Below, piece by piece: positions 16,985-60,547 of a DNA stretch of 64,000 nucleotides. Within the stretch, counting starts at the first letter, position 1, and each line of letters starts with the position of its first letter. This DNA is from Arctopsyche grandis. Its lineage: Eukaryota > Arthropoda > Insecta > Trichoptera > Hydropsychidae. The notes beneath the pieces are model-generated. The model was not told the origin of the DNA. It made no database searches and worked only from the letters and a program-made list of their open reading frames with translations. A program made the position numbers and the translations under genes. The DNA is taken from positions 21,727,001 through 21,791,000 of the forward strand of contig NC_135364.1 in assembly GCF_051622035.1 (NCBI RefSeq). The letters are read 5' to 3'.

Positions 16985-19508
16985 AGTCCCTGTTTTATTG
17001 TTCCTGAGGATAAGTTTCACCCTACGCTCAGTATTGATTTTGATGCTACATGTTCCCATTTAATGTTAAATGATTCTGGGCACAATAGTAATCGTAATTG
17101 TAATTCTGTTAATCATGATTTTTATGGTTGGAAATTTAATAATGTTGACTTTGCTGGCCTGAATTCTGTTTTGTTGGAATCGGAGTGGATTGATCTTTTC
17201 GAGTGCTTGGATGTGAATGCTGCTGTCGAGATATTTAATAGGATTGTGCATTCTTCTTTTAACAAATGCTTTAACAAAAAATTTCCTAAATCCAGAAGAA
17301 TTTTTCCTAGTTGGTTCTCAGCTGAATTAATCGTAGTCATCAGTCGTAAATGTTACTTGCACAAACGCTGGAAGTTCACTAAGGACTCACATGATTACGT
17401 TGAATTCTGTCAGTTGCGTTCTCATTCCAAAAAATTGATCTCAATTTGTCACGCTGACTTCATTAAGAAATGTGAAGATTCCATTTCCATAAACCCAAAA
17501 TTATTTTGGAACTTTATAAATTCTAAACATAATAACAATTCGAATTTGACAATGATGTTCAATGGTGATGAGTCGTTCTCAGGTTCGAAAGATATCGCTA
17601 AGGGTTTTGCTGAGCATTTTAAATCTGCATTTGTAGACTCATTCACTCAATCTTCAAATAATAAGTTTCAAATAAGTCATTCCTTCATTCTGTCAGTATT
17701 TGAATTTAATATCAGTGATATGGAGTATGGGTTCCAGAAGCTGAAACCTAATAGATCTTTTGGTCCTGACTTTATTCCCGATTTTGTTTTAAAGGGATGC
17801 AAGTCCAGTTTGTTATATCCCTTGCTTCATATCTATAATTTATCACTGAAATATTCTCTGTTCCCTGACTCTTGGAAATGCACCAAAGTCACTCCAATTC
17901 ACAAAAATGACGATAAATCTTTTATTAATAATTACAGACCAATAGCCATTGTTTCGGCTCCAGCCAAATTATTCGAAATAATTTTGCAGAGATTACTTTA
18001 TAACCATTGCAGTCGGTTTATCATAGACCAACAGCATGGTTTTCGTTCAGCACGCTCTACGACTACTAATCTTTTGTCTTTCACAAACTTCATTACTAAA
18101 TCGCTAGATGCAGGGCATCAAGTTGATGTGATCTATACCGATTTTGCTAAAGCTTTTGATAAGGTTGATCATTCAATACTTATTAAGAAATTGGCCAATT
18201 TTGGTCTATCGGATAATCTTACTGATTTTTTTACTTCTTATTTAAGTAATCGTCGTCAGTTTGTTTGTTTTGATGGCCATTTCTCTGATGTATACCTCAC
18301 ATCTTCTGGCGTGCCCCAAGGCTCTAATTTGGGACCTTTACTGTTTCTAATATATGTGAATGATATTGGCTCGGTACTTTCAGATTCAAATTTTTTACTA
18401 TATGCTGATGACCTCAAGTTATTCATGAAAATTGATAGTGTTTCTGACTGTGAGGTCCTTCAGAGTAATTTGAACTCTTTATGGTGCTGGGCGACTAATA
18501 ATCATTTACCTCTTAGCGTTAGTAAATGCAATATTATGTCTTTTTCTCGGTCTTCTAACCCCACCTTATATCAGTATAATCTTGGTGGAACTCCACTGTG
18601 TAGAACATTATCCAAAAAAGACCTTGGCGTTACGTTTGAGAGCAGATGGAAGTTTGGTATCCATATTTCCAATATGTGCAATAAAGCTTCAAAGATGCTG
18701 GGTTTCGTTTTACGTAATGCTCACAATTTCAATAATTTAAGAGTTTTGCGTCTTCTTTATAACGCATTGGTCCGAAGCATTTTGGAATCTGATGCCATTA
18801 TATGGAGTCCCAGTGAATTAACTCACTCTCTAAAAATTGAAAGAGTTCAAAGGAAGTTCCTCCGCTATCTATATATGAGGGAGTTTGGATACTACCCTCA
18901 ACTGTTTCCTAGTGCTTTTGTGCAAGGTTCTGTTGGCTATACTTCCCTATCTCATCGGCGGGATATGCATCTTGTGTGTCATTTCTTCAAATTATTAAGA
19001 GGTGATATTTACAACCCAACTATATTGGAAGAAATGAAATTTTGGGTTCCATCTCGCCTCATTGATTATCGATTGCGTCCATTGTTCCAAACTATTAAAG
19101 CAAGAACTAATGTTCTTGCTTTTTCACCAATCGCTCGAGTCTTACGCTGCTTGAATTTGGTCAGCAATCACATTGATATTTTCAATATTTCACCGGATAA
19201 TCTATCCGTATTTTTACTGTTTTTTACTTTTAATTCAATTTAAACTATTTATATGTGTTTTTTTTTTTTGTGTATTATTTTCATTTTTGATTTTTCAATT
19301 TATTAATTCTCAATTTTTCAATTTTTAATTTTTATGTACAATTTTTTAAATGTTTTATTTTATTTGTTTTTCTATTATTGTTGTTTTATTTTTTCTTATG
19401 TATTTGATCTTTTATGTATTGTCTGGCCACAGTGTCATATTGGGGTGACCTGTAAAGACTCTGTGGTATACTTGTATATTAAAATAAATAAATAAATAAA
19501 TAAATAAA
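16985..19508 (+). mobile_element. 5'-truncated non-LTR retrotransposon (jockey/CR1-like)
   Basis: The element has lost most of its endonuclease. An open frame runs from 16985 through the end of the endonuclease linker and a full reverse transcriptase to TAA at 19241-19243. A 3' UTR follows and the element ends in an (AAAT)n tail at about 19480-19508, typical of target-primed insertion. No 5' target duplication could be identified. Confidence 0.85.
17063..19243 (+). CDS. Reverse transcriptase ORF of the non-LTR retrotransposon (N-terminus missing)
   Basis: An intact 726-codon frame from an internal Met; the frame is open back to 16985. Reverse transcriptase motifs occur in order: YRPIAIVSAPAKLFE, QHGFRSARSTTTNLL, DFAKAFDKVDH (first catalytic Asp), SSGVPQGSNLGPLLFLIYVND and the YADD active site. 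A thumb-like and C-terminal region follows; no RNase H domain was seen. The reading frame has no stop, so the insertion may be young, but without the endonuclease it should be immobile. It is a jockey/CR1-type sequence; the exact clade needs a tree. Confidence 0.9.
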   Translation: MLNDSGHNSNRNCNSVNHDFYGWKFNNVDFAGLNSVLLESEWIDLFECLDVNAAVEIFNRIVHSSFNKCFNKKFPKSRRIFPSWFSAELIVVISRKCYLHKRWKFTKDSHDYVEFCQLRSHSKKLISICHADFIKKCEDSISINPKLFWNFINSKHNNNSNLTMMFNGDESFSGSKDIAKGFAEHFKSAFVDSFTQSSNNKFQISHSFILSVFEFNISDMEYGFQKLKPNRSFGPDFIPDFVLKGCKSSLLYPLLHIYNLSLKYSLFPDSWKCTKVTPIHKNDDKSFINNYRPIAIVSAPAKLFEIILQRLLYNHCSRFIIDQQHGFRSARSTTTNLLSFTNFITKSLDAGHQVDVIYTDFAKAFDKVDHSILIKKLANFGLSDNLTDFFTSYLSNRRQFVCFDGHFSDVYLTSSGVPQGSNLGPLLFLIYVNDIGSVLSDSNFLLYADDLKLFMKIDSVSDCEVLQSNLNSLWCWATNNHLPLSVSKCNIMSFSRSSNPTLYQYNLGGTPLCRTLSKKDLGVTFESRWKFGIHISNMCNKASKMLGFVLRNAHNFNNLRVLRLLYNALVRSILESDAIIWSPSELTHSLKIERVQRKFLRYLYMREFGYYPQLFPSAFVQGSVGYTSLSHRRDMHLVCHFFKLLRGDIYNPTILEEMKFWVPSRLIDYRLRPLFQTIKARTNVLAFSPIARVLRCLNLVSNHIDIFNISPDNLSVFLLFFTFNSI

Positions 19509-19616
19509 TATAATTTTTTACAGATTTCTCATGACACAGAACATCTTTTCCAACTAGAGATGTATGGGAACTAGTCTTATTGTGAAGGTCTTCTTCACCA
19601 CCAGTCCGCCATGTAT

Positions 19617-20401
19617 TGTAGACAGATTCGTCTGTGTTCGGTATTAATACAACTATATGTTGAATGTGGTATTTATTTGGTAGTAACACGTATACACAAG
19701 TATGGTTAATTGTTGGTAAAAGTATGTCGTTCAGAGGTCTCTGGATGTGGTAGAGTGTCGCTGGCTCGGCATTCGGCTATGTTCAGCAAGTCTCTGAATA
19801 CGGCAGTGTGTTGCTGGCTCGGTCGGCTGGTTGATCTTCCAAGTCCGTGTAGTGAAGTGGTGGCTGGTCAGGAGCTGGATGTCGACTGGTCTGCTGCTTT
19901 GTGTCGACGCTTGCTGCTGTGGGTCGACTGGCGTTGTTTGGGTTGTACCTCCTTTTATAGTGTTTTTTGAATCGCCTGATCGATGGTGGTGGTTTGTTGA
20001 TGCGTAAGAAAGGAATGCACTTTTGTCGAGGCGTAGAATTTTCTGGAACGCTTGATGGAAGTGGTTATTGATGCGTACGAGCATTTAGTTGTTGATGCGT
20101 ACGAGAGGAATGCTTTCGTCGAGGCGTAGTATTTTCTGGAATGCTTGATGGAAGTGGTCGTACGAGCATTTAGTTGTTGATGCGTACAAGAGGAATGCTT
20201 TCGTCGAGGCGTAGTATTTTCTGGAATGCTTGATGGAAGTGGTCGTACGAGCATTTAGTTGTTGATGCGTACAAGAGGAATTTGCTTTCGTCGAGGCGTA
20301 GTATTTTCTGGAATACTTGATGGTGTTCCGCTCGATGTATTTTGTTGTTGCGGAATATTCTCGAAGGTTTCGATGACGATGACGACGACGAGATTCCTAC
20401 A
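19617..20401 (-). mobile_element. Solo LTR of the TGTAGGAATC family (diverged)
   Basis: Read on the minus strand it begins TGTAGGAATCTCG at 20401 and shares the CAACAACAAA leader, the tandem U3 repeats (four ~80-bp units, 20010-20320), a TATAAAAGGAGG promoter core near 19950 and the GTCGAC-rich downstream part with the LTRs at 21368 and 23787. The 3' end is diverged; I place it at 19617, where the minus strand reads ...CTACA. The flanks (GTAT and GATG) do not match as a target duplication, so the left edge is uncertain. Confidence 0.65.
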
Positions 20402-21363: not shown

Positions 21364-21367
21364 CGGG

Positions 21368-22282
21368 TGTAGGAATCTCGTCGTCGTCATCGTCATCGAA
21401 ACCTTCGAGAATATTCCGCAACAACAAACTACATTCCCGAAACCCAGACGACATGCACCTGCAGTCATTATATTAAACTCAGGCGGAACGCCCCTACCAG
21501 TCGAGTGGAACCAAAACGGTCGAAACACGCCGCCACCATTAAAATACATCGAGCGGAAAGGCGCCAAGCATTCCAGAAAATTCGACGCCTCGACGAAAAC
21601 AAAATTCCTCTCGTACGCGTCAATAACCACTTCCATCAAGCATTCCAGAAAATTCGACGCCTCGACGAAAACAAAATTCCTTTCGTACGCGTCAATAACC
21701 ACTTCCACCAAGCATTCCAAAAACACTATAAAAGGAGGTACAACCCAAACAACGCCAGTCGACCCACAACAGCAAGCGTCGACACACAGCACCAGACCAG
21801 TCGACCCACAGCAGCAAGCGTCGACACACAGCAGCAGACCAGTCAACATACAGCTCCTGACCAGCCACCACTACACTACGCGGACTTGGAAGATCAACCA
21901 GCCGGACGAGCCAGCAACACACTGCCGTATCCAGAGACCTTCCGTACATAGCTGAATGCTGAGCCAGCGACACTCTACCATATCCAGAGACCGCTGAACG
22001 ACATACTTTTGCCCACAAATACCATACCTTTGTACAACCATAGGCAAACAATAAAACTTTATAAAACTAGCACAACAGTGTTTCGTTAGGCCGGGATACG
22101 GTCAACACACATGTAACCCGCCTACATTGGTACTAATCCGACGTGATCTACGCAACCTTCTGATCATCCAACAGCGCTGTCAACACATCGCTACCCCGCC
22201 TACATTGGTGACCCCATCTTTGAACCACACAACAGTGTTTCGTTAGGCCGGGATACGGTCAACACATCGTACCCCGCCTACA
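21368..22282 (+). repeat. 5' LTR of the non-coding LTR element
   Basis: The LTR has TG...CA ends, two ~75-bp tandem units in U3 (GCATTCCAGAAAATTCGACG repeats), a TATAAAAGG box at 21727-21735, ~36-bp GTCGAC-containing repeats after it, a poly(A) signal at 22050-22055, and a duplicated 3' end in which CCCGCCTACATTGG occurs at about 22122, 22196 and 22273. Confidence 0.9.
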
Positions 22283-22384
22283 TTGGTGACCCCATCTTTG
22301 AACTACGCAGCCTTCATAGCAGTCAACAGCGCAGTCAACACGGCAGCCCACAGTGCAGCCTCCACAACAACCAACAGCCGCCAC

Positions 22385-22560
22385 GACAGCAGTCAACAGC
22401 GCAGCCTACATAGCAGCCCACAGCGCAGCCTACATAGCAGCCTACATCGCAGCCTTCAAAGCAGCCTACATAGCAGCCCACATCGCAGCCTACATAGCAG
22501 CCCACATCGCAGCCTACATAGCAGCCCACAGCGCAGCCTACAAAGCAGCCAACAAACGCC
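22385..22560 (+). repeat. 12-bp tandem repeat in the element interior
   Basis: The unit is CAGCCTACATAG with variants such as CAGCCCACATCG, repeated about 14 times. It stays open in several frames purely because of its period, so the apparent Ala/Tyr/Ile or Ser/Leu-rich proteins are not taken as genes. Confidence 0.85.
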
Positions 22561-23224
22561 ACGACAAGGCAACAGCCAGAAGCCTTCACGCAACCGCAAG
22601 CTTCGAGCAACCACAAGCTTCACGCAACCGCAAGCTTCATGCAACCGCAGACTTCACGCAACCGCAGCCTTCAACGCAGTATACAACGCAGCCCTCAACG
22701 CAGACTTCAAACGCAGTCCGCTACATGTCCCCACAACTAGTGACCATGTCAAACAACTCCGCAGCTTTCGCCACAACAAGACGCAACCCGGAGACAACAA
22801 CCAAATGGATCCACTACTGTTGATCCGCCAGCACCGCTCATCACACCTTCGATGATTCATCACCTCGATGAGTCCACGCAGAACACAGCAGCCTGCACAA
22901 CAGCACCGTCCAGACCGTCACAAACCTTCACTACCATTGTAACGACCGCAACAGTAACATGGTGTGAAAGTACATATGGACCAGCTACCAACACAACCCG
23001 CTGTTGAGTCAACCCACTCCAGCACAACCGGCGAAACAAATCGCCACTGAGCCAACTAGCTCCAACACAACACAGCCGCTGTCGAGACAACTAACTCCAG
23101 CACAACCAGCAAAACGCCTGCACAACAACACCGTCCAGACCACCAACCTTGACTATCAACGTAGCCTAGACAGAATAAGCAACATGATAGAAAAGAACAA
23201 CTTGGACCAGCATGCAACACAACC

Positions 23225-23520
23225 CGCTGTTGAGACAACTAACTCCAGCACAACCAACGAAGACCAGCACTCAACGCACTTCGTCAACCAACGTTCTTCA
23301 CGCAAGTTCCGCTGTCGAGACAACTAACTCCAGCACAACCAACGAAGACCAGCACTCAACGCACTTCGTCAAACAACGTTCTTCACGCAAGACCCGCTGC
23401 CGAGACAACTAACTCCAGCACAACCAACGAAGACCAGCACTCAACGCACTTCGTCAACCAACGTTCTTCACGCAAGACCCGCTGCCGAGACAACTAACTC
23501 CAGCACAACCAGCAAAACAG
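23225..23520 (+). repeat. 85-bp tandem repeat in the element interior
   Basis: Units start at 23225, 23310, 23395 and 23480 (last one partial), each beginning CGCTG(T/C)(T/C)GAGACAAC. The unit head also occurs singly near 22998, 23067 and 23663, showing that the array grew from a dispersed motif. Confidence 0.85.
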
Positions 23521-23786
23521 TCACGCGAATGACTCCACGCAGAACACAGCAGCCTGCACAACAGCACCATCCAAGCCATCGCAAACCTTCACTACCAACG
23601 CAGCTCGCCCAAAATAAGCAACCTGGTAGAGAACAAGACTTGGACCGGCATGCAACACAAGACCCGCTGTCGAGACAACTTTCTCCAGCACAACCGGACA
23701 AACAACGACGCCATCGAGTCAATAGACTCCAACACATCAAGATTCCCACAAAATCACACACATCGTTAACACTCACCGGAGAGCCA

Positions 23787-24701
23787 TGTAGGAATCTCGT
23801 CGTCGTCATCGTCATCGAAACCTTCGAGAATATTCCGCAACAACAAACTACATTCCCGAAACCCAGACGACATGCACCTGCAGTCATTATATTAAACTCA
23901 GGCGGAACGCCCCTACCAGTCGAGTGGAACCAAAACGGTCGAAACACGCCGCCACCATTAAAATACATCGAGCGGAAAGGCGCCAAGCATTCCAGAAAAT
24001 TCGACGCCTCGACGAAAACAAAATTCCTCTCGTACGCGTCAATAACCACTTCCATCAAGCATTCCAGAAAATTCGACGCCTCGACGAAAACAAAATTCCT
24101 TTCGTACGCGTCAATAACCACTTCCACCAAGCATTCCAAAAACACTATAAAAGGAGGTACAACCCAAACAACGCCAGTCGACCCACAACAGCAAGCGTCG
24201 ACACACAGCACCAGACCAGTCGACCCACAGCAGCAAGCGTCGACACACAGCAGCAGACCAGTCAACATACAGCTCCTGACCAGCCACCACTACACTACGC
24301 GGACTTGGAAGATCAACCAGCCGGACGAGCCAGCAACACACTGCCGTATCCAGAGACCTTCCGTACATAGCTGAATGCTGAGCCAGCGACACTCTACCAT
24401 ATCCAGAGACCGCTGAACGACATACTTTTGCCCACAAATACCATACCTTTGTACAACCATAGGCAAACAATAAAACTTTATAAAACTAGCACAACAGTGT
24501 TTCGTTAGGCCGGGATACGGTCAACACACATGTAACCCGCCTACATTGGTACTAATCCGACGTGATCTACGCAACCTTCTGATCATCCAACAGCGCTGTC
24601 AACACATCGCTACCCCGCCTACATTGGTGACCCCATCTTTGAACCACACAACAGTGTTTCGTTAGGCCGGGATACGGTCAACACATCGTACCCCGCCTAC
24701 A
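23787..24701 (+). repeat. 3' LTR of the non-coding LTR element
   Basis: Same length and structure as the 5' LTR, with the TATA box at 24146-24154. It is followed at once by the CGGG target duplication. The sequence before it has no strong polypurine tract, only ACCGGAGAGCC. Confidence 0.9.
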
Positions 24702-24705
24702 CGGG

Positions 24706-28660: not shown

Positions 28661-31163
28661 CTGTACATATATTAAATTAATTAAAAGAAAAGGTAGAGTA
28701 AATTACCAATTCATAATATCGATTTTTAAATGGGTGTGTAAATAAAATATTTAAAGAAGTTAAAACCTGCAATCTTCAAGATAAGTGAACTGTAAGATAC
28801 AAACATAATTTAAAAAAATTATCATCGCAATCAATTCATGCCTGTAATTTTTTTTAATGAATATTTTACACAATCTATATTTTTTTGCCCTGTGAAATTT
28901 GTGAGCTTTGATCTCAAGATATTTACTATGAAAGAAAAAAAAATCAACATAACGATAAGCATTTCATTCACCAATATTAAATTTAATTGCGATAGGATTG
29001 TGTGTTGGAATAATCTCCAAAATATATACACACGCCTAATTTTTTAAATAATATAAACCTTGTAAAAACCATGAAATCCAGATTGACGACTGATTATGAT
29101 TATACTAAACACTAGAATTCAAATGTCTCACTATTACAATACTTCATCCATTGATACTTCGTTTATAGATAAAGCAAAAACATAAATAACAAGCGATTAC
29201 ATTGAAAGATTCACGAAAGCGGCATTTTAAACAGAAAATGACACACAAGGTACGATTTTTTTCAACGAATACTGTTCGTAATAAGACGAGCTTTCAATGT
29301 AGGTTATCTACAAAAGTGTGTAGTTTTATTTTATTTCATTCCACAAACACTAAAACATATATGAATGTATATATGTATGTATGTATGTAGACAGTACAAA
29401 AACGATAACAACTTATCCCGACATAGCAATTCCGAACAAATTATGCTTTAAAACGATGACAAATGTACCAAAACTATAAATGGAACACGATTATGTAATG
29501 AAACTGTCGGTTTTTTAAAATATACATATATAAAGTGCGATAATGTTGGAGTACATCGTACATATTTGCAGTATACATATAGTCATATGTGCAGAAGGTT
29601 CGTAGTATCGTAATGTGTGAAAAGAGAACGCATGCGCCAACATATCGAGTCCTGGAGTGCGCAGACTCGCCTCCAGCCTCCCTCGTCCATGGTTACAGCA
29701 TCCTGGAGCATTCGTCTCGTCTGCTTTGCTCCCTCAGACACAACAAAGGTGGGCTAAATTTCAAATAACTGACAGTCGCTATATCAGCACTACACTACAG
29801 TTAGGGAACATCTACTTAAATTATTAGATAGTTTTCAAAATTTAAAATCCATATACTTATTTTTTGGTGTATTCATAAAATTCCACGATTTTACTACGAA
29901 CGGGTTATTTGCGTTCAAATGAAATACAACTATATCAATTGATATTTCGTATTCATAAATACATAAATCTAATGGGAATTTTTGTATTCACGTCTTTTAG
30001 AAGTCGTTTTCAAATCATTCATTGTTGTTTTATAATTTTTTTTTTCGGAATCTTGCAGTTCTGCCGCAATATTAAAAATGAAAAATCAGAAAATATTTTA
30101 TTAATTGTCAATATGAGTCTTTAATAGTCAGTATGAGTCTTTGGTACTTTAAGTGTATACGAATTAGAGTAGTTTGAAGTCGATTATAATATTTTACAAT
30201 TTTCCAATTAATATTTACAAAGCAAAAAAATACAATTACATCAATATTTTACGCTTAAATAACCTCGATAACATCAATTTATCGATGAACCAAAAAAAAT
30301 TGTTTTTCTGCCTGTGGTTTGAAATGAACTAAATATGAAAACCTCATAAAGTACCTTTAATATTTCATACAATAGGAATCTAGTTTGAATCAGACTAGAT
30401 TATATTAGAATATTTTATTTTTATTTGTAAAAAACTTAAATACATACAAACAAAGTCTCTTTCGAAATTATATATTTGACTAGTGGTTTTACCCGGCTTC
30501 GCTTGGTATTTGTAATAAAAACCTCTTAAACTTGGCTAATCTAATAGTAAACATTTTATTAAATTTATTTGAATAGTTTTATTTTATTAAAATTTAATTG
30601 AATATTCGTTTGTTTTTTTTTTATTAAATTTAACGTCATGGATTCTACGAACCAAAACTAACATACATTCAAAGTCTCTTTCAAAATTATATATTAGATT
30701 TTGACTGTATTTATGCGTAAACCAATTATCAAAAGTCAAAATATTGTGATTTCTTTATTTACTCTTGATCTCATCCGTGTGATACATCTTTGGTTTTATA
30801 TATGGATTAGACTATTTTGATATTTTTGACACAAGATTTATTATAACAAAACTGCGTATAAAATTGAATAGGTTCGGTGTGATACAAGGCAGTGGGCGTA
30901 TGTACATATGTGATAATATTATTAGTGATTGTGAATGCTTCCGTCGGGATAATGCAGTAATAAAATCTTTTCAGTTAAATTTTTATTTTATAAATATAAA
31001 AAAAAACTAACAGATATATCATGCATAGACCAAGTACATAATAATCAACAATCAGTTTTAAAATCTATTCGTTTTACTATATTTAAATGAACAAACATAA
31101 TTTCAATGTTTTATTGTATACATTTGATATTTGTCTTTAACAAAGCAAAAATTTCTATTTCAG
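28661..31163. other. Intergenic or 5' intron sequence before the first DUF229 gene
   Basis: AT-rich with no coding gene. A GC-richer patch at about 29630-29748 ends in ACAAAG followed by GTGGGC, a possible donor, and might be a 5' UTR exon of the DUF229 gene, whose start codon lies just after an acceptor. Two direct copies of AAAGTCTCTTTC(G/A)AAATTATATAT (30454 and 30670), next to a TTTTACCCGGCTTCGCTTGG word at 30488, mark an old dispersed element. Confidence 0.35.
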
Positions 31164-31164
31164 G

Positions 31165-33183
31165 ATGAATGAAACTTACATCTCTTTGTTGAAAGAAAGG
31201 AAAGCAATATGTCATCTATTGCGATATAAATACTATTTGCTTGCTTTGCCAATAGTAATAGCCACAATATTTTTGTTGCTCATAAATATCGGAGTGGAGA
31301 TAACTTTTCAATCACACGAAATACGATTCTCCTGGACCCGACTAGACAACTACAAATACGTCGATCTGAGTGAAGAAAACTACTTCATCAAAACCGAAGG
31401 ATGCACGATACCGGCATTCGATCCTTTCGACATATCCGTGGTGAACTTTTTTCATATGGTGAAACCCATAAGCTGCCACAACAGCACGAGTCCTCCATTG
31501 GTCGAATCGAATCAGACGAGTCTGTGGATAGAAGAAAAGTATTATTCAAATTATGGCATAAGCGAAGAACAGCATCTGCTATGTTGCTATAGACCTTTCT
31601 TTCGTCAAGATTCCAACATCAGTACATCAGACGACCGGTACGAATACGAAAAAGACTGCACGGTCTTTTCAAAGTCGACGAACGTATTCGACGAGTTCGT
31701 CAGAGTCGAGTGCACTTATAAAGGTAGTGATATATATAAGGATTTCCACTCCTTTGTGATAATAAAAAACAATGCGGAAAAGGTCAGCGCTACCAAAAGA
31801 AACGAATACAAGTATAATGTTCTCGTTTTGGGTATAGATGCTGTGTCTCGTCTGAATTTCCACCGGACGATGCCTCAAACGCTGAATCTTCTTAAGGACA
31901 TGGGGGCAATTGAATTCCGCGGCTACAACAAAGTGGGTGATAACACGTTTCCAAACTTAGTTCCGATCTTATCTGGATTGAGTGAAACCGAATTACATGA
32001 TCTGTGCCTTCCAAGAAAGAATTCAACTTTTGACGATTGTCCGTTCATATGGAAAAAATACAAAGAGTCGGGTTACATGACTGCTTTTGCCGAAGATGCT
32101 TCTCAAATAGCATTGTTCAATTATTTGAAAAAAGGATTCATCGAAGCACCCACGGATTACTATTGGAGAACTTTTAACCATGTGGCAGAAGCCGAAATAG
32201 GCCACGAAAAACACCTGAACGCAAAACTTTGCATGGGATCCAGAATAACTGTAGACGTATTGTTGGATTACATTTACAAATTCCTCACTGTGCTATCTAA
32301 TAATTTATACTTCGGTTTTTTTTGGGAAACGAGCCTCACACACGACTTTTTAAACTATCCTCTATTGGGAGATGAAAAGTATTCGTCGCTCATTTCTAAA
32401 CTTAAAGAAGAAGGACTGCTCAATAAGACAATCGTAGTAGTCTTGAGCGACCACGGAATGAGATGGGGACAGATTCGCACAACGCACCAAGGAAGAATGG
32501 AGGAGCGCTTACCGTTTTTATTTATAGTCTTGCCTGAAATCTTCAAGGATAAATTTCCCCTCGCTTCTTCTAATCTGAAACGAAACACTAAAAGACTGAC
32601 CACACCTTACGATCTGCACGAAACGCTTTTAGATTTATTGGATCCGAGTCAGATAGTAAACGAAGAAATCGAACAGAAGATTAGCAATAAGACTTACGAA
32701 AACAACAGGGGTATAAGTCTCTTTTTGCCGATAAACCAAAGTCGCACGTGTCAATCCGCAGCTATAGATCCACACTGGTGCACGTGTCACCAAACCCGAA
32801 CCCTGGCCGTGGACGATGAAGATGTCGTATTCGTAGCGAACTTTGTGGTGAATTATATGAATGTTCTATTGAATGATTATATACAGTGTGCCAAATTAAA
32901 CCTAAGTAGAATATTGGAGGCCAGAATTGGCGAGCCATCGAAGTCATTAGAAATGGGAGGGGTAGTCAACGTAGTGCAAGATTACACAGTAGTAATAAAT
33001 ACAGAACCAGGTCATGGGCTGTTCGAAGCCACCGTGAGGCACACTTTAATTGGCTGGAACGTTACTGGTACAATAAGTAGAATTAATCTATATGGGAAGC
33101 AAAGTCACTGCGTTGACAACTTTCATTTAAAACTGTATTGTTTCTGTGATAGTCCGATTTCAAAATTGAACATATTTAGATAA
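31165..33183 (+). CDS. DUF229 family protein, copy 1 (alkaline-phosphatase/sulfatase fold)
   Basis: A 672-aa protein in one exon. The ATG lies one base after a TTTCAG acceptor, so a non-coding 5' exon exists upstream. A short basic N-terminus is followed by one hydrophobic helix (LLALPIVIATIFLLLINI, about residues 26-43), giving a type II membrane or Golgi-lumen topology. The DUF229 domain follows, with VLVLGIDAVSRLNF (metal-binding Asp and candidate nucleophile, near residue 220), FAEDAS and VVLSDHGMRWG (metal-binding Asp-His, near 428). Multiple N-glycosylation sequons and conserved cysteines are present. The substrate of the family is unknown. It pairs with the paralogue at 39152. Confidence 0.92.
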   Translation: MNETYISLLKERKAICHLLRYKYYLLALPIVIATIFLLLINIGVEITFQSHEIRFSWTRLDNYKYVDLSEENYFIKTEGCTIPAFDPFDISVVNFFHMVKPISCHNSTSPPLVESNQTSLWIEEKYYSNYGISEEQHLLCCYRPFFRQDSNISTSDDRYEYEKDCTVFSKSTNVFDEFVRVECTYKGSDIYKDFHSFVIIKNNAEKVSATKRNEYKYNVLVLGIDAVSRLNFHRTMPQTLNLLKDMGAIEFRGYNKVGDNTFPNLVPILSGLSETELHDLCLPRKNSTFDDCPFIWKKYKESGYMTAFAEDASQIALFNYLKKGFIEAPTDYYWRTFNHVAEAEIGHEKHLNAKLCMGSRITVDVLLDYIYKFLTVLSNNLYFGFFWETSLTHDFLNYPLLGDEKYSSLISKLKEEGLLNKTIVVVLSDHGMRWGQIRTTHQGRMEERLPFLFIVLPEIFKDKFPLASSNLKRNTKRLTTPYDLHETLLDLLDPSQIVNEEIEQKISNKTYENNRGISLFLPINQSRTCQSAAIDPHWCTCHQTRTLAVDDEDVVFVANFVVNYMNVLLNDYIQCAKLNLSRILEARIGEPSKSLEMGGVVNVVQDYTVVINTEPGHGLFEATVRHTLIGWNVTGTISRINLYGKQSHCVDNFHLKLYCFCDSPISKLNIFR

Positions 33184-33510
33184 TAGATGGCATCTAAATG
33201 TACGATGTATAGATCTGAAAATATAATTTATATTTAAATTTTAAATTGTATAAAACACATTCATTTAGATTTACTGAATATGTACCTATTCCAGTTGAGT
33301 ATCCTTATCCCACATCCAATCAAAGAAACCTTAGTATAATTGGATCGTCTACATCAGTGGTTCTCAAGTGCGGCCACGGTGGCCTCATGCGGCCACTAGA
33401 GGATTTTACTGCGACCACCAGCGACTTAATAGTAAATAATACTAATACTTAAAAAAAAATTAAATATTGTTGAATACATCTGACTTGTATTCAACAAAAA
33501 ACAAACACCT

Positions 33511-34537
33511 TGTAGGCGGGGTAGGTAGTGTTGACCGTATTCCAGCCTAACGAAACACTGTTGTGCTTGTTTTAAGTTGTTTTATTGTTTGCCTAAATAT
33601 TGTACAAGTGTATTAGAATATTTGTGGAAGTTTTCTCGAAGCGGCTATTGGCTGTTGACTTGATGTCGTGATGGCCGCTGGATCTGCAATGTGTCGTTGC
33701 TCTGGATCCGGCTATGTTCAGATGTCTGGATATGGCAGTGTGTTGCTGGCTCGGCATTCGGCTATGTTCAGATGTCTCTGGATAAGGCAGTGTGTTGCTG
33801 GCTCGGCATTCGGCTGAGTTGCAAGCGTTCTTCCATTGTAGGGTAGTGTAGTGGTAGCTGTTCAGATGCTGGATGTCGACTGGTCCGCTGCTGTGTGTCG
33901 ACTCTTGTTGCTGTGGGTCGACTGGTCTGCTGCTGTGTGTCGACTCTTTTTGCTGTGGGTCGACTGAAGTTGTTTGGGGTGGACCTCCTTTTATATTGTT
34001 TTTGGGGATCCACGTGACCTGTGTTTGGCGATTGATTCCGAGAAGTGCACGTGGTATTTACGTGTGCAAGTTATGCGAGGAATGTGGTTTGTTGTTTAGG
34101 GTGGACGTTTCTCGAATGTTTGGCGTCGTTCCACTCGATTTAGTTTAATGGATGCAGGTGTTCTTCGTGTCGTTCTGCTTGGTTTGTTGGGGTGGAATAT
34201 GCTCGAATGTTTGGCGTCGTTCCACTCGATTTAGTTTAATGGATGCAGGTGTTCTTCGACTTGGTGTCGTTCTGCTTGGTTTGTTGGGATGTAATATGCT
34301 CGAATGGTTGGCGTCGTTCCACTCGATTTAGTTTAATGGATGCAGGTGTTCTTCGACTTGGTGTCGTTCTGATTGGTTTGTTGGGGTGGAATATGCTCGA
34401 ATGTTTGGCGTCGTTCCACTCGATTTAGTTTAATGGATGCAGGTGTTCTTCGACTTGAGATGACATCAATGGTTGAGCGTGAGAAATGTATTCTCCGTCG
34501 CACTAGATGTTTCGATGGCGATGACGAGATTCCTACA
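33511..34537 (-). mobile_element. Solo LTR of the TGTAGGAATC family nested in the hAT element
   Basis: 1027 bp with TG...CA ends on the minus strand and a perfect ACCT target duplication (33507-33510 and 34538-34541). It shares termini, the ACAACAGTGTTTCGTTAGG word and the TATA-GGAGG core with the LTRs at 21368 and 23787. U3 contains about four ~108-bp tandem units (34100-34450). Unlike those LTRs it has one copy of the LTR end, not three. Confidence 0.9.
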
Positions 34538-34639
34538 ACCTCAAAATTCTTTCCACGCGAAAATGATCCGTAGTGTATTCTCAATAGTATGCAGAACAAT
34601 AAGAAATTGACTTGCACACATGGGAGTGAGTTCATTCGA

Positions 34640-39117: not shown

Positions 39118-39151
39118 AATGGGCTAATATAATTAAAATTTGTATTCCAGA

Positions 39152-41173
39152 ATGAATTTAAACTACACCTCTTTGCTGAAAGAAAGAATAGGAATACGAC
39201 AAGTATATCGATATAGATATTATATATTTGCTTTACCATTAGCAATAGCCACAATACTTTTGTTGCTCATAAATATTGGAGTGGAGGTAAGTTTTAAATC
39301 GAATGAAATACGAATTTCCTGGCCTCAATTGGTCAAAAATACATCGGTCATCGGCCAGAGTGAAGACAAGTATTTCATCAAAACTGAGGGATGTACGATA
39401 CCGGCTTTCCATCCTTTCGATAGAGGCGTGGTGAAATACTTTCAGATGGAAAGCCCCATAAGCTGCCACAACAGCTCGAGTCCTCCATTGGTCGAATCGA
39501 ATCTGACGAGTCTGTGGATAGAAGAAAAGTATTTTTCAAATTATGACATAACCGAAGAACAGCATCTGCTCTGTTGCTATAGACCTTTCTTTCGTCAAGA
39601 TTCTAATATCAGTACATCAGACGATCGATACGAATACGAAAAAGACTGCACGGTCTTTTCAAAGTCGACGAACGTATTCGACGAGTTCGTTAGAGTCGAG
39701 TGCACTTATAAAGGTAGTGATATTTATAAGGATTTCCACTCCTTTGTGATGATCAAAAACATTGCGGAAGATGTCAGCGCTACCAAAAGAAACGAATACA
39801 GCTATAATGTTCTCGTTTTGGGTATAGATGCTGTGTCTCGTCTGAATTTCCATAGGACGATGCCTAAAACGCTGAAAATTCTAAAGAGCATGGGAGCAAT
39901 TGAATTCCGCGGCTACAACAAAGTGGGTGATAATACGTACCCAAACTTGGTTCCAGTCTTGTCTGGATTGAGTGAAAGTGAATTGCAAGATCATTGTCTT
40001 CCCAGAAATGATTCAACGTATGACGATTGTCCGTTCATATGGAAAAAGTATAAAGAATCTGGTTACATGACTGCTTTTGCCGAAGACGCTTCTGGAATAG
40101 GGGTGTTTAATTATATGAAGAAGGGATTCATCAATGCACCTACTGATTACTACTGGAGAACTTTCAACCAAGCCGCAGAATTGGAAATAGGTCACGAAAT
40201 ACACTCAAACACAAACCTTTGCATAGGGCCCAGAATAATTGTAGATGTTTTATTGGATTACATTTACAAATTCCTCACTGTGCTATCTAACAATTTATAT
40301 TTTGGTTTTTTTTGGGAGACAAGCCTTACCCATGACTTTTTAAACTATCCTCTGCTGGGAGACAATAAATATTCGTCGCTCATGTATAAACTTAAAGAAG
40401 AAGGACTGTTTAGTAACACAATCGTAGTAGTCATGAGCGATCACGGAATAAGATGGGGAGAAATCCTCTCAACGCCTCAGGGAAGAATGGAAGAGCGTTT
40501 GCCATTCTTATTTATAACTCTGCCTGAAATCTTTAAAGAGAGATTTCCCCTCGCTTCTTCTAATCTGAAACGAAACACTAAAAGATTGACCACACCTTAC
40601 GATCTGCATGAAACCTTTTCAGACTTATTGAATGTGAGTCAAATAGAAAATGAAGTGATCGAACAAGCGATTCATAATAAGACTTATGAAAACAACAGGG
40701 GTATAAGTCTCTTTCTGCCAATACATGAAAATCGCACGTGTCAATCTGCAGGTATAGATCCACATTGGTGCACGTGTCACGAATCCCGAAAGCTGAACGT
40801 TGATGATAAAGTGGTAGTAATCGTAGCAAATGTTGTAATAAATTATATGAATGGTCTATTGGCTAATTATACACAGTGCGCGAAATTAAATCTTAGTGGG
40901 ATTTTGGAGGCCGGAAGAAATGTGCCATCGAAATCGTTAGAAATGTGGAAAGTACTCAGTAAAGTGCAAGATTACACAGTAATAATAAATACAGAGCCAG
41001 GTGACGGTCTGTTCGAAGCTACTGTTAGACATAGTTTGAGAGGCTGGAACGTTACTGGTACAATAAGTAGACACAATTTATATGGAAAGCAAAGTTACTG
41101 CATTGATGACGTTCATTTAAAACTGTATTGTTTCTGTAATAGTCCAATTTCAAAAATGAATTTATTTGGATAA
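39152..41173 (+). CDS. DUF229 family protein, copy 2
   Basis: 673 aa; the ATG is one base after the TATTCCAG acceptor, as in copy 1. Same layout: N-terminal membrane helix (FALPLAIATILLLLINI), VLVLGIDAVSRLNF, FAEDASG and VVMSDHGIRWG, with Asp and Asp-His metal ligands kept. Clearly a duplicate of 31165-33183. Identity is patchy: residues around FRQDSNISTSDDRYEYEKDC and on through YKGSDIYKDFHSFV are the same in both, while the N-terminal 60 residues and the C-terminal third differ more. Both copies are open, so both are probably functional. Confidence 0.92.
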   Translation: MNLNYTSLLKERIGIRQVYRYRYYIFALPLAIATILLLLINIGVEVSFKSNEIRISWPQLVKNTSVIGQSEDKYFIKTEGCTIPAFHPFDRGVVKYFQMESPISCHNSSSPPLVESNLTSLWIEEKYFSNYDITEEQHLLCCYRPFFRQDSNISTSDDRYEYEKDCTVFSKSTNVFDEFVRVECTYKGSDIYKDFHSFVMIKNIAEDVSATKRNEYSYNVLVLGIDAVSRLNFHRTMPKTLKILKSMGAIEFRGYNKVGDNTYPNLVPVLSGLSESELQDHCLPRNDSTYDDCPFIWKKYKESGYMTAFAEDASGIGVFNYMKKGFINAPTDYYWRTFNQAAELEIGHEIHSNTNLCIGPRIIVDVLLDYIYKFLTVLSNNLYFGFFWETSLTHDFLNYPLLGDNKYSSLMYKLKEEGLFSNTIVVVMSDHGIRWGEILSTPQGRMEERLPFLFITLPEIFKERFPLASSNLKRNTKRLTTPYDLHETFSDLLNVSQIENEVIEQAIHNKTYENNRGISLFLPIHENRTCQSAGIDPHWCTCHESRKLNVDDKVVVIVANVVINYMNGLLANYTQCAKLNLSGILEAGRNVPSKSLEMWKVLSKVQDYTVIINTEPGDGLFEATVRHSLRGWNVTGTISRHNLYGKQSYCIDDVHLKLYCFCNSPISKMNLFG

Positions 41174-56173: not shown

Positions 56174-57262
56174 ATCTCTGTACAGACTCCAGGGATGTTC
56201 AACTCGAGAGCACCCCCGAAGTCGGTTTTCTGAGATAGCTAGTGGTAAGCGTGGGCGGGGCTGGTTTCCTCAAGGTGCCTTCCTTCGTCGTCGGTGGTCT
56301 GGTCTCTGCTGATGTCGGCTGCTCTGCTATGTCCCTTTCTCCTTCGTAATGTGCGTGGGATGCGTGATGTGGAAAAAGGGAGGAAATTGTATAATAATAA
56401 AAACAGGTTGTAATTCTGTTTGTATGGTGACTGTATTTTATATATGTATAAATACAGAGAATAAGCAGGGGGGGGGGGAGTCCGTCGTGAAATTAGCGCG
56501 CACGTGTTCGAGAGGTTATGATAACCTCACTCCTCACGTGACTACGTGATCTGACTTCGACGAAGAAAGACCAGGATTTCCTCACTTCTCACCGGACGTA
56601 TACTGAAGCTGTACTTCCAGTATCGTCTGCCGATCCAGGCTGAGCTGATCGGGACTCGGTGGTGGGAACAAACTCGGTAGCGAACAGAGATGTTCACTCG
56701 ACCGAAGCGGAAAACGAATAGGAGGCGGGGACGCGCGCTCGGCGCCGATCTCCCTCCAAAAAGGCTCCTTTGGTCGTAACGCCACGAAAGCTGACCATGA
56801 AGACTTGGTCGGAACATACTCCCCCCGTTGGAAGTCAGAGGATCGAATTCCAAAACAAACAAGAATTAATGGTGCACAAGCGACTAATGAAATACACAAA
56901 AACCAAGCAAATAAGCAAAAAAATAACAACAAAATAAAAAACAACACAACAAAATAACCCAGTCAGCAAACAAAATAACATTAGTCCACCGTCAGTTTCC
57001 CATCCTAACATAAGCAGCTGACTAAGCCGGCAAGAAACAAACAAAAAATAGACAAACAAACAACCAAAACACCAACAAATAACCAACACCAATGCTAGGT
57101 AACAATATTGTTCAACCGTTATATGTCCCAATCTATCCTGATAGCTCCATTACAAAGCACCAATCAAACCAACAAGAGAAGCATAAAAGAAAAGCAACTC
57201 AAAAACTTAAGTTAAAACACATAAACTGAATCCACAACACAGATACAAACAACGCGCCAACT

Positions 57263-59563
57263 TTAATGTGGGACGTTATGAACGTTCGCCACACCGTTGC
57301 ACAAATTCACTGAGTGCTGCTCGACTGGCAGTCGAGCTACTCGCCGGACTGCTCGCTTGGTGTTGCTGATGGAGGAGTAGTAGGACCTACTCCTGTGCCC
57401 CTGTCTGCCAGGGGCCGCTGCTGCATGTGCTGGTGTGGTAGCACCCTCGCTCCGGGTTGATCGACCAGATCCTCCTGCTGTTGCGCAACTAGTGGTGCGC
57501 CAACTAGGAACTGGCCAGGAGTTATGGGAGCTGGGTTGGGAAGGTCGAAAGATGTGAGGGTTAAAGGGCGCGGGTACATTGCGCTTCGGCAAGCGGAATC
57601 TTCGTTCCGCGTAAATACGCGATTCGTCCAGGGGACGCGTAACTGTCTTGACTGGACGTCTCGCGCCAAAACAAGATAACGGATCACGACCCGTTGTGTG
57701 ATGGCAATTCCGAGAATCGCTTGAAACTGTGGGCGCTTCTAGAGAGCCGCCCAATATCCAGCCGAAAGCTGTATTCATCATCGCGATGCGTCCTCCTCTG
57801 TCACCGCGTGACTTGGAGGGAACTAAAATGGTACGTTTGCCATTGCGTAACATCGCATGATAGGCGTCGCTGCCTATCACCATATCCACTGTACCGGGAA
57901 TATCGAATGACGGATCGGCAAGGGGGAGATGAAGCGGCAAATGGCTCCGAATCTCGGACACGTTGCGCGATGGAAGTTGATTCGCGATCTCGGGCATGAT
58001 TGCGCAATCGAGATCAACACTGGAGCCCTGATTGGGGATGCGCGGTAGAATTCGAATTACCGCGCCACTAGTAATGGACGTCCTATTTGAACCTATTCCT
58101 ACCAGGTTGACGTCCATCCTTTTCGACTTTAAGGCGAGTCGCCTTCTTAAGTCTTCAGAGATGAGGTTGAGTTCGGAGCCGTTATCTAACAATGCTCGAA
58201 CCTTGTGCGAACGCCCATCTCCGCCGCGAACTTGTACTTCCACGGTGGATAACAGGACAGTTCGGGCGTGAGAAGGCGATACGCGTCTCACCGAGTGTAA
58301 AACCAACGATGATTTTACGGGTTTGGCGTTCTCTGATTTCTTGGGGCTCCGATAATGTTTGGCCTTATTTGAAGGCGAAGTTTGGTATGGAGTTGAGTCA
58401 TGTAACATGGTGTGATGGGCATGACCGCATTTGAAGCATCTCTGCTTTGTTTGGCACGCGTGAACTATGTGCCCTGGCCTCAAGCAGTTGAGACATAGTC
58501 GACGTTTTATGGCGTTCGACCTACGCTCATCACCGCTCATTTGGCGGAATGATGGACACGCTAGCAGAGAATGACTTCCGCTGCAACTGATGCAGGAGGG
58601 GCGTTCCCTCCTCACATGCAGAACTGCTGCCTTCGGATTCGTAATGGTTCTTGGTCGAGGATTCGACTCGCCTTTTAAGACGAAGTCGGCATTTGCCATC
58701 GATTGGCACTGGCACGTTAGAAAATGCATTATTTTGCTAAACGTGCAGTCTTCATACTTGGGAGTCTGAAGCTCCCATTGCAGAAGTGTACTCCGGTCGA
58801 GTTTTCTGGTGATAAACATCACCAGAATCTCGTTCCAGGTCTCGACCCGGACGCCCAAGTTAACGAGCGCACGTACATGCATGTTGGCATCATCTATGAG
58901 ACGACGCAGACTGACGTGATTGTTGCTCACGACTGGCTCGGCTTCAAGCAATGCCTGAAGGTGATACTGAACAACAATTTTTTTGTTGTTATAGCGTTGA
59001 TCCAAAATGGACCACGCGCTCGTAAATGAATCTGAAGCTAATTCCAAGCCGTCAACTAAACGTTGGGGCTCTCCTTTTAGGCTTCCTAGTAAGTATTGGA
59101 ACCGGGCGATTTGCGAACTCTCGCCGGCCATAGCGGCCAAGAAGCGTTGTGAAAAAAGCGGCCAATTTTGGACGTTGCCTTCGAAGGTGGGCAACTCCAA
59201 ACGGGGCAATTTTATTGCCGAATTTGATTGCGGTACAGGTGACATTGTGAGGTTAGCGCCATCTAACGGTGAAGCGCTCAATTGCGGCTCACGCAAATTG
59301 ATTGCTTCGGTGCATCGCACGAAGGCGGCCATATGCTCCCTATCAAATAGGTCCACGACGGATTCGGAGGCCTGCGCCTCTTCTTGGTCCAGCTCGTTTA
59401 TCTGAGCTTGGATCGCTTCGAATTCAGACAGTAATGGTCTGATTGTTTCGAGCCTGATTCTGAGCTCGAAGATGCTCAGATCGTCCCCCAATTGATTCGC
59501 GTTTCTCGTTAACCGAGCGCGAATTCTTTTCCGCGTATTTTTAAGCGTACTCAAAGACGCCAT
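57263..59563 (-). CDS. BEL/Pao gag-protease polyprotein, fused to a deleted pol
   Basis: 766 aa. The N-terminus is a helical capsid region (DUF1759-like; ELPTFEGNVQNWPLF, the typical BEL/Pao gag signature), followed by zinc knuckles (CISCSGSHSLLAC, CLNCLRPGHIVHAC, CFKCGHAHHTMLH), then an aspartic protease of DUF1758 type with LLDNGSELNLI in place of the more usual DTGS, ending near TAFGWILGG. Reverse transcriptase, RNase H and the integrase core are absent. The remaining ~130 codons come from a junction where the frame leaves pol and later re-enters its C-terminus. It may still make gag particles but cannot reverse-transcribe by itself. Confidence 0.9.
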   Translation of the reverse strand: MASLSTLKNTRKRIRARLTRNANQLGDDLSIFELRIRLETIRPLLSEFEAIQAQINELDQEEAQASESVVDLFDREHMAAFVRCTEAINLREPQLSASPLDGANLTMSPVPQSNSAIKLPRLELPTFEGNVQNWPLFSQRFLAAMAGESSQIARFQYLLGSLKGEPQRLVDGLELASDSFTSAWSILDQRYNNKKIVVQYHLQALLEAEPVVSNNHVSLRRLIDDANMHVRALVNLGVRVETWNEILVMFITRKLDRSTLLQWELQTPKYEDCTFSKIMHFLTCQCQSMANADFVLKGESNPRPRTITNPKAAVLHVRRERPSCISCSGSHSLLACPSFRQMSGDERRSNAIKRRLCLNCLRPGHIVHACQTKQRCFKCGHAHHTMLHDSTPYQTSPSNKAKHYRSPKKSENAKPVKSSLVLHSVRRVSPSHARTVLLSTVEVQVRGGDGRSHKVRALLDNGSELNLISEDLRRRLALKSKRMDVNLVGIGSNRTSITSGAVIRILPRIPNQGSSVDLDCAIMPEIANQLPSRNVSEIRSHLPLHLPLADPSFDIPGTVDMVIGSDAYHAMLRNGKRTILVPSKSRGDRGGRIAMMNTAFGWILGGSLEAPTVSSDSRNCHHTTGRDPLSCFGARRPVKTVTRPLDESRIYAERRFRLPKRNVPAPFNPHIFRPSQPSSHNSWPVPSWRTTSCATAGGSGRSTRSEGATTPAHAAAAPGRQGHRSRSYYSSISNTKRAVRRVARLPVEQHSVNLCNGVANVHNVPH
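57337..57687 (-). pseudogene. Integrase C-terminal remnant in the alternate frame
   Basis: Overlaps the gag-protease frame. Encodes NPAPITPGQFLVGAPLVA and QEDLVDQP, the conserved post-core part of BEL/Pao integrase. This shows that pol was deleted between the protease and this point and that the deletion changed the frame. Confidence 0.75.
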
Positions 59564-60547
59564 TATTGAAATGCGACGAAATCAAACAAAGGAAAAAATG
59601 GACGCGGGAAAAAACAAAATGGACGTTGACGACCAAAAAAAATAGCAACAACAACAGAAAAATGCTAATTACGACCAACCTGGATTCGACGACGTTGGAA
59701 GACCAGCTCTGAAGACATCCGGCTCGAAGGACCAAATGTACAGACTCCAGGGATGTTCAACTCGAGAGCACCCCCGAAGTCGGTTTTCTGAGATAGCTAG
59801 TGGTAAGCGTGGGCGGGGCTGGTTTCCTCAAGGTGCCTTCCTTCGTCGTCGGTGGTCTGGTCTCTGCTGATGTCGGCTGCTCTGCTATGTCCCTTTCTCC
59901 TTCGTAATGTGCGTGGGATGCGTGATGTGGAAAAAGGGAGGAAATTGTATAATAATAAAAACAGGTTGTAATTCTGTTTGTATGGTGACTGTATTTTATA
60001 TATGTATAAATACAGAGAATAAGCAGGGGGGGGGGGGAGTCCGTCGTGAAATTAGCGCGCACGTGTTCGAGAGGTTATGATAACCTCACTCCTCACGTGA
60101 CTACGTGATCTGACTTCGACGAAGAAAGACCAGGATTTCCTCACTTCTCACCGGACGTATACTGAAGCTGTACTTCCAGTATCGTCTGCCGATCCAGGCT
60201 GAGCTGATCGGGACTCGGTGGTGGGAACAAACTCGGTAGCGAACAGAGATGTTCACTCGACCGAAGCGGAAAACGAATAGGAGGCGGGGACGCGCGCTCG
60301 GCGCCGATCTCCCTCCAAAAAGGCTCCTTTGGTCGTAACGCCACGAAAGCTGACCATGAAGACTTGGTCGGAACAATCTCATTTAAAAAAGCATTTGTTG
60401 AGCAATATTTAGGCATTTTTCTGTATAGCAATTTTCCCACGACAGGAGATCCATGCGAGCGATTTTCGTAGCGGCGGTTATCCTGGTAGCGATTCACATT
60501 TGGGATGTAACCCGTTTATTGACAAAAATAGACTAAAAAAAAAACCT

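Follow-up and report, generated by a model that had tools for sequence, protein, structure and literature searches.

The window analysed here, a stretch of 64,000 nucleotides from the caddisfly Arctopsyche grandis (C10:21727001-21791000; genome of 475.67 Mb in 189 contigs), carries a complete LTR retrotransposon on its forward strand. Its 5' LTR (21368-22282) and 3' LTR (23787-24701) are 915 bp long, begin with TGTAGG, end with CCTACA and are identical at 915 of 915 positions in an exact alignment with an offset of exactly 2419 bp, and the element proper of 3334 bp is enclosed by the target site duplication CGGG (21364-21367 and 24702-24705). A preliminary description of the locus had claimed a complete, young element with this LTR pair and this duplication, and all of these structures were recovered to the base, the absence of differences between the LTRs bearing out the young insertion. 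A chance origin of the LTR pair can be ruled out because pairs with 4-bp duplications of their own recur at other loci. Within the 5' LTR, a 72-bp tandem repeat in U3 (21564-21723; TRF), a region whose repeat structure varies between copies, is followed by a TATA-box-like TATAAAAGG (21727-21735), likely a Pol II promoter, and by an AATAAA (22050-22055) that is likely the polyadenylation signal. The first U5 segment (22078-22126) ends with CCTACA at what we call boundary 1, and the last 156 bp of the LTR consist of two 78-bp units, A (22127-22204) and B (22205-22282), which are repeated in the 3' LTR.

The interior of 1504 bp is dominated by C (36%) and A (34%). It opens at the LTR edge with a putative primer binding site and leader start (22283-22315), continues through a 12/24/36-bp tandem array of the GCAGCCTACATA type (22306-22554), 17-bp and 12-bp arrays (22584-22716) and an 85-bp array (23222-23511), the core of which is present in 1 to 12 copies per interior across 15 interiors of the family, and closes with CCGGAGAGCCA (23776-23786) in the place of a polypurine tract. 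The last sequence was found in 13 of 14 elements, the remaining one having a single change (GGAAAG), and its longest purine run comprises only six bases. The earlier statement that the interior is made only of tandem repeats was too strong, since TRF arrays cover about 672 of 1504 bp (ca. 45%) and the remainder is C/A-rich with diverged dispersed repeats. Elsewhere in the window we found two DUF229 genes about 8 kb apart (31141-33183 and 39137-41173; 85% identical DNA, Pfam match for the first gene), an ORF of 752 aa (16985-19243) encoding a reverse transcriptase domain (PF00078) that is of non-LTR type by eye, and a second young LTR element (56179-60375) with repeats of about 639 bp that are 99.8% alike and a duplication ATCTC. 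The latter contains a single ORF (772 aa), whose DUF1759 domain is also found in BEL/Pao gag, and has not enough space left for pol; a second ORF of that length with an almost identical start was seen at another locus (L017:637-2952).

The claim that the element has no coding capacity was upheld for the copies read. None of its seven ORFs on both strands matched a Pfam family at the curated cut-off, and across 15 interiors the longest ORF starting with methionine spanned 86-161 aa in varying frame. The cores of the 85-bp unit always lie 85 bp apart, a unit length that is not a multiple of three, and the low number of stops on the C/A-rich strand accounts for the length of the open frames. A coding interior was thus rejected for these copies, as Pfam matches stayed below the cut-off and frames were not kept between copies. 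All 14 LTR pairs enclose the same kind of C/A-rich repeat interior, and no coding interior was present in 30 overlapping stretches of 3 kb retrieved with the junction motif described below, which represent about 15 places on C1 and hence a small part of its 383 matches; all 30 contain family sequence, one of them (L032) just a fragment. In the flanks of the loci retrieved, outside the family, there are ORFs of at least 180 aa, some of which resemble non-LTR reverse transcriptases by eye. Other functional content was also sought. No ribozyme or tRNA gene family of Rfam matched the element at E up to 1, the sole Rfam match being a weak snoRNA far below its cut-off, and ARAGORN predicted no tRNA in the window. 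Retrozymes are defined by a hammerhead ribozyme in the LTR, and this class was rejected given that no Rfam ribozyme family was found at the same threshold. A special RNA fold was likewise rejected for the first 600 nt of the interior, which fold no better than shuffled sequences (z +1.26).

Genome searches with the LTR and with the interior revealed a large family. The LTR gave at least 87 matches, from the 40 candidates scored out of 1365, and the interior at least 125, from 40 scored out of 202; the 17-base junction of LTR and primer site (CCTACATTGGTGACCCC) has 383 exact matches in the genome versus none for the reversed control. We read 20 further loci, picked by LTR rather than by interior, and together with the window element an exact 4-bp duplication was present at 20 of 21. 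It was seen in 13 plain LTR pairs, at the outer ends of L013, in five solo LTRs (L009, L012, L021, L025 and L026) and in L023 (AACA). The sole locus lacking it is L017, where the LTR is truncated, and no common motif among the duplicated targets was apparent by eye. L013 itself has three LTR starts with a single CGAC duplication around the whole element. LTRs of the family range from 758 to 1065 bp and interiors from 1.14 to 2.31 kb. Nine of 14 LTR pairs are free of substitutions and the other five have 1, 1, 1, 1 and 2, which amounts to six in 12,824 aligned positions, with pairs selected by similarity to the window LTR and therefore biased towards young copies. One of these differences, in 758 positions, belongs to the L015 pair, with one LTR ended at boundary 1. 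Length differences within pairs were 1 bp in L020, 42 bp in L022, 72 bp in L013 and about 156 bp in L015. Similarity of the LTRs might also be maintained by conversion between copies, because some LTRs (L018/L019 and L028/L026) match the LTR of a different element as closely as they match the other LTR of their own.

Older and related LTRs occur in the window as well. A solo LTR of the same lineage on the reverse strand (33511-34537, flanked by AGGT at 33507-33510 and 34538-34541) differs from the window LTR at 191 of 757 aligned positions, has a 97-bp array in U3 and possesses a single U5 boundary, ending at boundary 1. A sister LTR, also on the reverse strand (19600-20401; extent of the match only, 19693-20401), shares U3 and R with the family and has a different U5; the same type occurs at L046 and may lead to the donor. 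At L046 the sister-type U5 is followed by TGGTGACCCCCGACTAAGAGCC, and at L047 a TGGTGACCCCCGACTAAGAGCC leader stands behind the usual family LTR.

The sequence next to the 5' LTR resembles tRNA-Trp and is the candidate primer site. Its sequence is TTGGTGACCCCGACGTGAT and the leader starts with TTGGTGACCCCATCTTTGAACTACGCAGCCTTC. For comparison we used what we take to be the eukaryotic tRNA-Trp sequence. The region scored 46 against its reverse complement, compared with 33 for the best of 300 shuffles and 35 for the best unrelated 80-base tile of the window. The core TTGGTGACCCC corresponds to 10 nt of the tRNA 3' end, and the match runs past the usual 18 nt through TTTGAAC and an extension CGCAGCCTTC, which together align with the T-arm, variable region and anticodon stem of the tRNA. 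Unit A scored 49 against a shuffle maximum of 28, and unit B 31 against one of 30, the latter being by itself not significant. The likeness is clearest at the first boundary of L054, where a perfect match of 18 nt is followed, after a short gap, by 16 more perfect bases (ACGCAACCTTCTGATC) that stop beside the anticodon. In HIV-1, synthesis of plus-strand DNA usually terminates at m1A58 of the primer tRNA and yields minor products that end at positions 55, 54 and 37 (PMC13191261). It is thus conceivable that tRNA sequence is captured when synthesis continues to about position 37, and the extension in this family may have originated in this way.

Both the tRNA-Trp likeness beyond 18 nt and the primer-site units inside the LTR had escaped the preliminary description. 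Each 78-bp unit opens with TTGGT, closes with CCGCCTACA and consists of a primer site, leader and U5 end. Unit A has a mutated core (TTGGTACTAATCCGACGTGATC) with an intact tRNA-Trp-like extension (ACGCAACCTTCTGATC) followed by the U5 end, and unit B has an intact core (TTGGTGACCCC) that lacks the extension and is joined to a second U5 copy. A U5-end pattern located 169 boundaries in the window and 50 loci (L009-L058); it misses sites that are not preceded by a U5 end, such as the one at C1:12866092, and the counts are not independent events because copies share ancestry. At 51 boundaries the core is mutated and the extension present, all of them unit A except for one at the L015 junction, and at 52 the core is intact and the extension missing, as in unit B, with identity over 45 bases. 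Core and extension occur together at 30 boundaries, 25 of them of leader type and five being intact A sites (one in L054, three in L023 and one in L039-L042). There is one leader site with a core mismatch (L050), one inverted leader (L046), and 34 boundaries not followed by a primer-site start, mostly LTR ends with flanking DNA and in one case a unit B with a 1-bp deletion.

The number of boundaries before the interior is three at most loci, two in L052 and L057 and four in L027, which thus exceeds the window copy by one unit. The two LTRs of a pair have equal numbers of U5 units, with one exception among the 14 pairs. Apart from L015, which retains no complete site (core plus extension), each of the 14 pairs has just one, located at the junction of LTR and interior, and in L016 about 70 bp of flanking DNA lie between the LTR and the complete site. 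The second element of L021 (C6:20293242 to beyond 20296283) carries, in this order, unit A, unit B, a complete site, a 76-bp unit and another complete site. Of the two complete sites, the first marks the end of its 3' LTR and the spare one lies 76 bp further inside. Likewise, L050/L049 (TATA on both flanks) has a spare complete site about 176 bp inside, and the LTR edge lies at the first site, whose core has one mismatch. In L054 an intact A site precedes the leader site; no junction motif was found downstream among the matches listed, which fits an LTR end at boundary 1 or a mutated stretch.

Taken together, we consider it likely that the window element is a recent copy of a large, apparently wholly non-coding LTR family that probably depends on another element's proteins for its movement, has tRNA-Trp as its presumed primer at 22283, inserts with a 4-bp duplication and is equipped with captured primer-site units. 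Its RNA would start in the LTR at the TATA box and would be packaged and reverse-transcribed by foreign proteins, with tRNA-Trp as primer, and the donor's integrase would then insert the copy. The weak polypurine tract of six purines and the primer-site core of only 10 nt, with unrelated window tiles reaching 35, count against this reading. The conventional alternative, in line with the usual origin of defective LTR elements, would be internal deletion in an autonomous element that has the same LTRs and still exists, and the sister LTR at 19693-20401 and in L046, which shares U3 and R and differs in U5, could be taken in its favour. However, loci picked by their LTR yielded 14 pairs that all enclose the C/A-rich repeat interior, and the 30 stretches from about 15 places on C1, a small part of the 383 matches, held no coding interior either, so that we regard such an origin as improbable.

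Regarding the donor, two marks of the family, the tRNA-Trp primer site (18 perfect nt in L054) and the 4-bp duplication (20 of 21 loci), point to a CsRn1-type Gypsy element. CsRn1-type genes are recognizable by a CHCC motif in gag and a GPY motif in integrase. The same combination of a PBS complementary to tRNA-Trp and a typical 4-bp duplication is described for the CsRn1 lineage of Ty3/Gypsy, whose members encode gag-pol in contrast to the gene-less window element; CsRn1_Cv1 is 4294 bp long with LTRs of 179/180 bp and seemingly a 6-bp duplication (PMC3630058). A BEL/Pao element, for example the gag-bearing one at 56179-60375, could have acted as donor instead, given that it is young and resides in the same window, yet it made a 5-bp duplication (ATCTC) as opposed to the 4-bp duplications of the family and seems to retain only gag, which makes a BEL/Pao donor rather implausible.

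How the LTR came to contain primer-site units is a more tentative matter. In reverse transcription, the 3' end of an LTR is the base adjoining the primer site in use. We suggest that the LTR grew through the decay of upstream primer sites and a shift of priming to sites further downstream: template switching would create spare copies of primer site, leader and U5 end downstream of the site in use, tRNA-Trp would read a two-part site composed of the 10-nt core and an extension that resembles its T-arm-to-anticodon-stem region, and the first complete site would set the LTR edge until one of its parts is lost, whereupon the next complete site takes over and the old one is absorbed into the LTR. 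A need for both parts would account for unit B being skipped despite its intact core. Judging from the copies compared, all stages of such a ratchet seem to be present in the genome, with candidates being a spare site inside (second element of L021, L050 and L054), decayed units A and B (the usual state), an extra unit (L027) and an older LTR that has none. An earlier form of the model, in which the last complete site is used and several sites give rise to aberrant copies, was dropped since L021 and L050 use the first site and are not inverted.

We hold the ratchet to be possible rather than probable, and a simpler origin deserves consideration, namely ordinary tandem duplication of the 78-bp units at the DNA level by slippage or unequal exchange that spread to both LTRs, with the choice of primer site being irrelevant. 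Repeat number in U3 and the interior varies too and L015 has lost about two units in just one LTR, both of which would be in line with such a process. On the other hand, unit number in U5 is equal in both LTRs of 13 of 14 pairs, unit edges fall exactly at CCTACA/TTGGT, 13 of 14 pairs retain a single complete site that is located at the LTR edge, and in the two copies with a spare site the edge stays at the first. We judge DNA-level duplication to be somewhat unlikely. Searches of the open-access literature for duplicated, tandem, second or additional primer binding sites returned work on prime editing and endogenous retroviruses, and none was found on multiple sites in LTR retrotransposons, which is weak evidence of absence.

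A few aberrant copies were also observed. In L041 (C1:6983704-6984113), an inverted U5 of 209 bp (99% identical) takes the place of the 5' LTR; it turns near LTR position 708 and is followed by U5 units and then the interior, with AACA on both sides. The insertion at L023:2181-2690 opens with an inverted U5 end of about 40 bp and is also bordered by AACA. Both have more than one complete site, as do three copies that are not known to be inverted. Integrase seems to accept U5 ends at both sides, given that both ends of the L041 and L023 insertions are U5 ends.

Non-autonomous LTR families with tandem repeats are already known in Culex. The closest described kind that we found is the cqUNK group of Culex quinquefasciatus with 38 non-coding families of 1.6-14.6 kb that have no known master copy, near-identical LTRs, PBS and PPT, and tandem repeats between the LTRs (PMC3286476). 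It differs in that its table lists no tRNA-Trp primer site and mostly 5-bp duplications, and the section on the group describes no primer-site units inside the LTR. The same study reports tRNA sequence and a duplicated LTR stretch at the LTR/PBS boundary of cqgypsy_1, similar to what we see here, but in that case the element is a coding one of the Osvaldo type and the sequence comprises two entire tRNAs (149 bp), which are not described there as LTR repeat units (PMC3286476). Regarding classification, the preliminary description had called the element larger than TRIMs and LARD-like. The former holds, since 3334 bp with 915-bp LTRs exceeds the TRIM size (under about 1 kb, LTRs of about 100-350 bp), while the latter does not, as LARDs have LTRs of about 4.4 kb and interiors of 3.5 kb (PMC3532108), far from the 758-1065 bp and 1.14-2.31 kb of the family. 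PbTRIM from Pogonomyrmex barbatus is likewise non-coding and young, with 4-bp duplications, solo LTRs and no known master in that account, whereas its copies measure 480-781 bp with LTRs of 152-184 bp, a tRNA-Leu primer and TA-rich targets (PMC3532108), as opposed to about 3.3 kb here. Helenus comprises non-autonomous LTR elements of animals that make 4-bp duplications and contain tRNA-like sequence in the LTR, and some hymenopteran members use tRNA-Trp (PMC10886601). Its tRNA-like part is, however, a proposed Pol III promoter, in contrast to the antisense primer-site sequence in the U5 of the window element, and both Helenus and PbTRIM are much shorter. Ty1 has a PBS in two segments with a small loop between them and uses tRNAiMet (PMC5371799), a precedent for a bipartite site as it may exist here.

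Long LTR families that lack proteins and a known master are a small puzzle in insects. The family described here is young and abundant and offers two clues to its donor, the tRNA-Trp primer site and the 4-bp duplication. Moreover, since the primer site in use determines the boundary, its LTRs keep a readable record of boundary movement, and the choice of primer site as well as possible contacts beyond the 18-nt site may be tested from natural copies alone.
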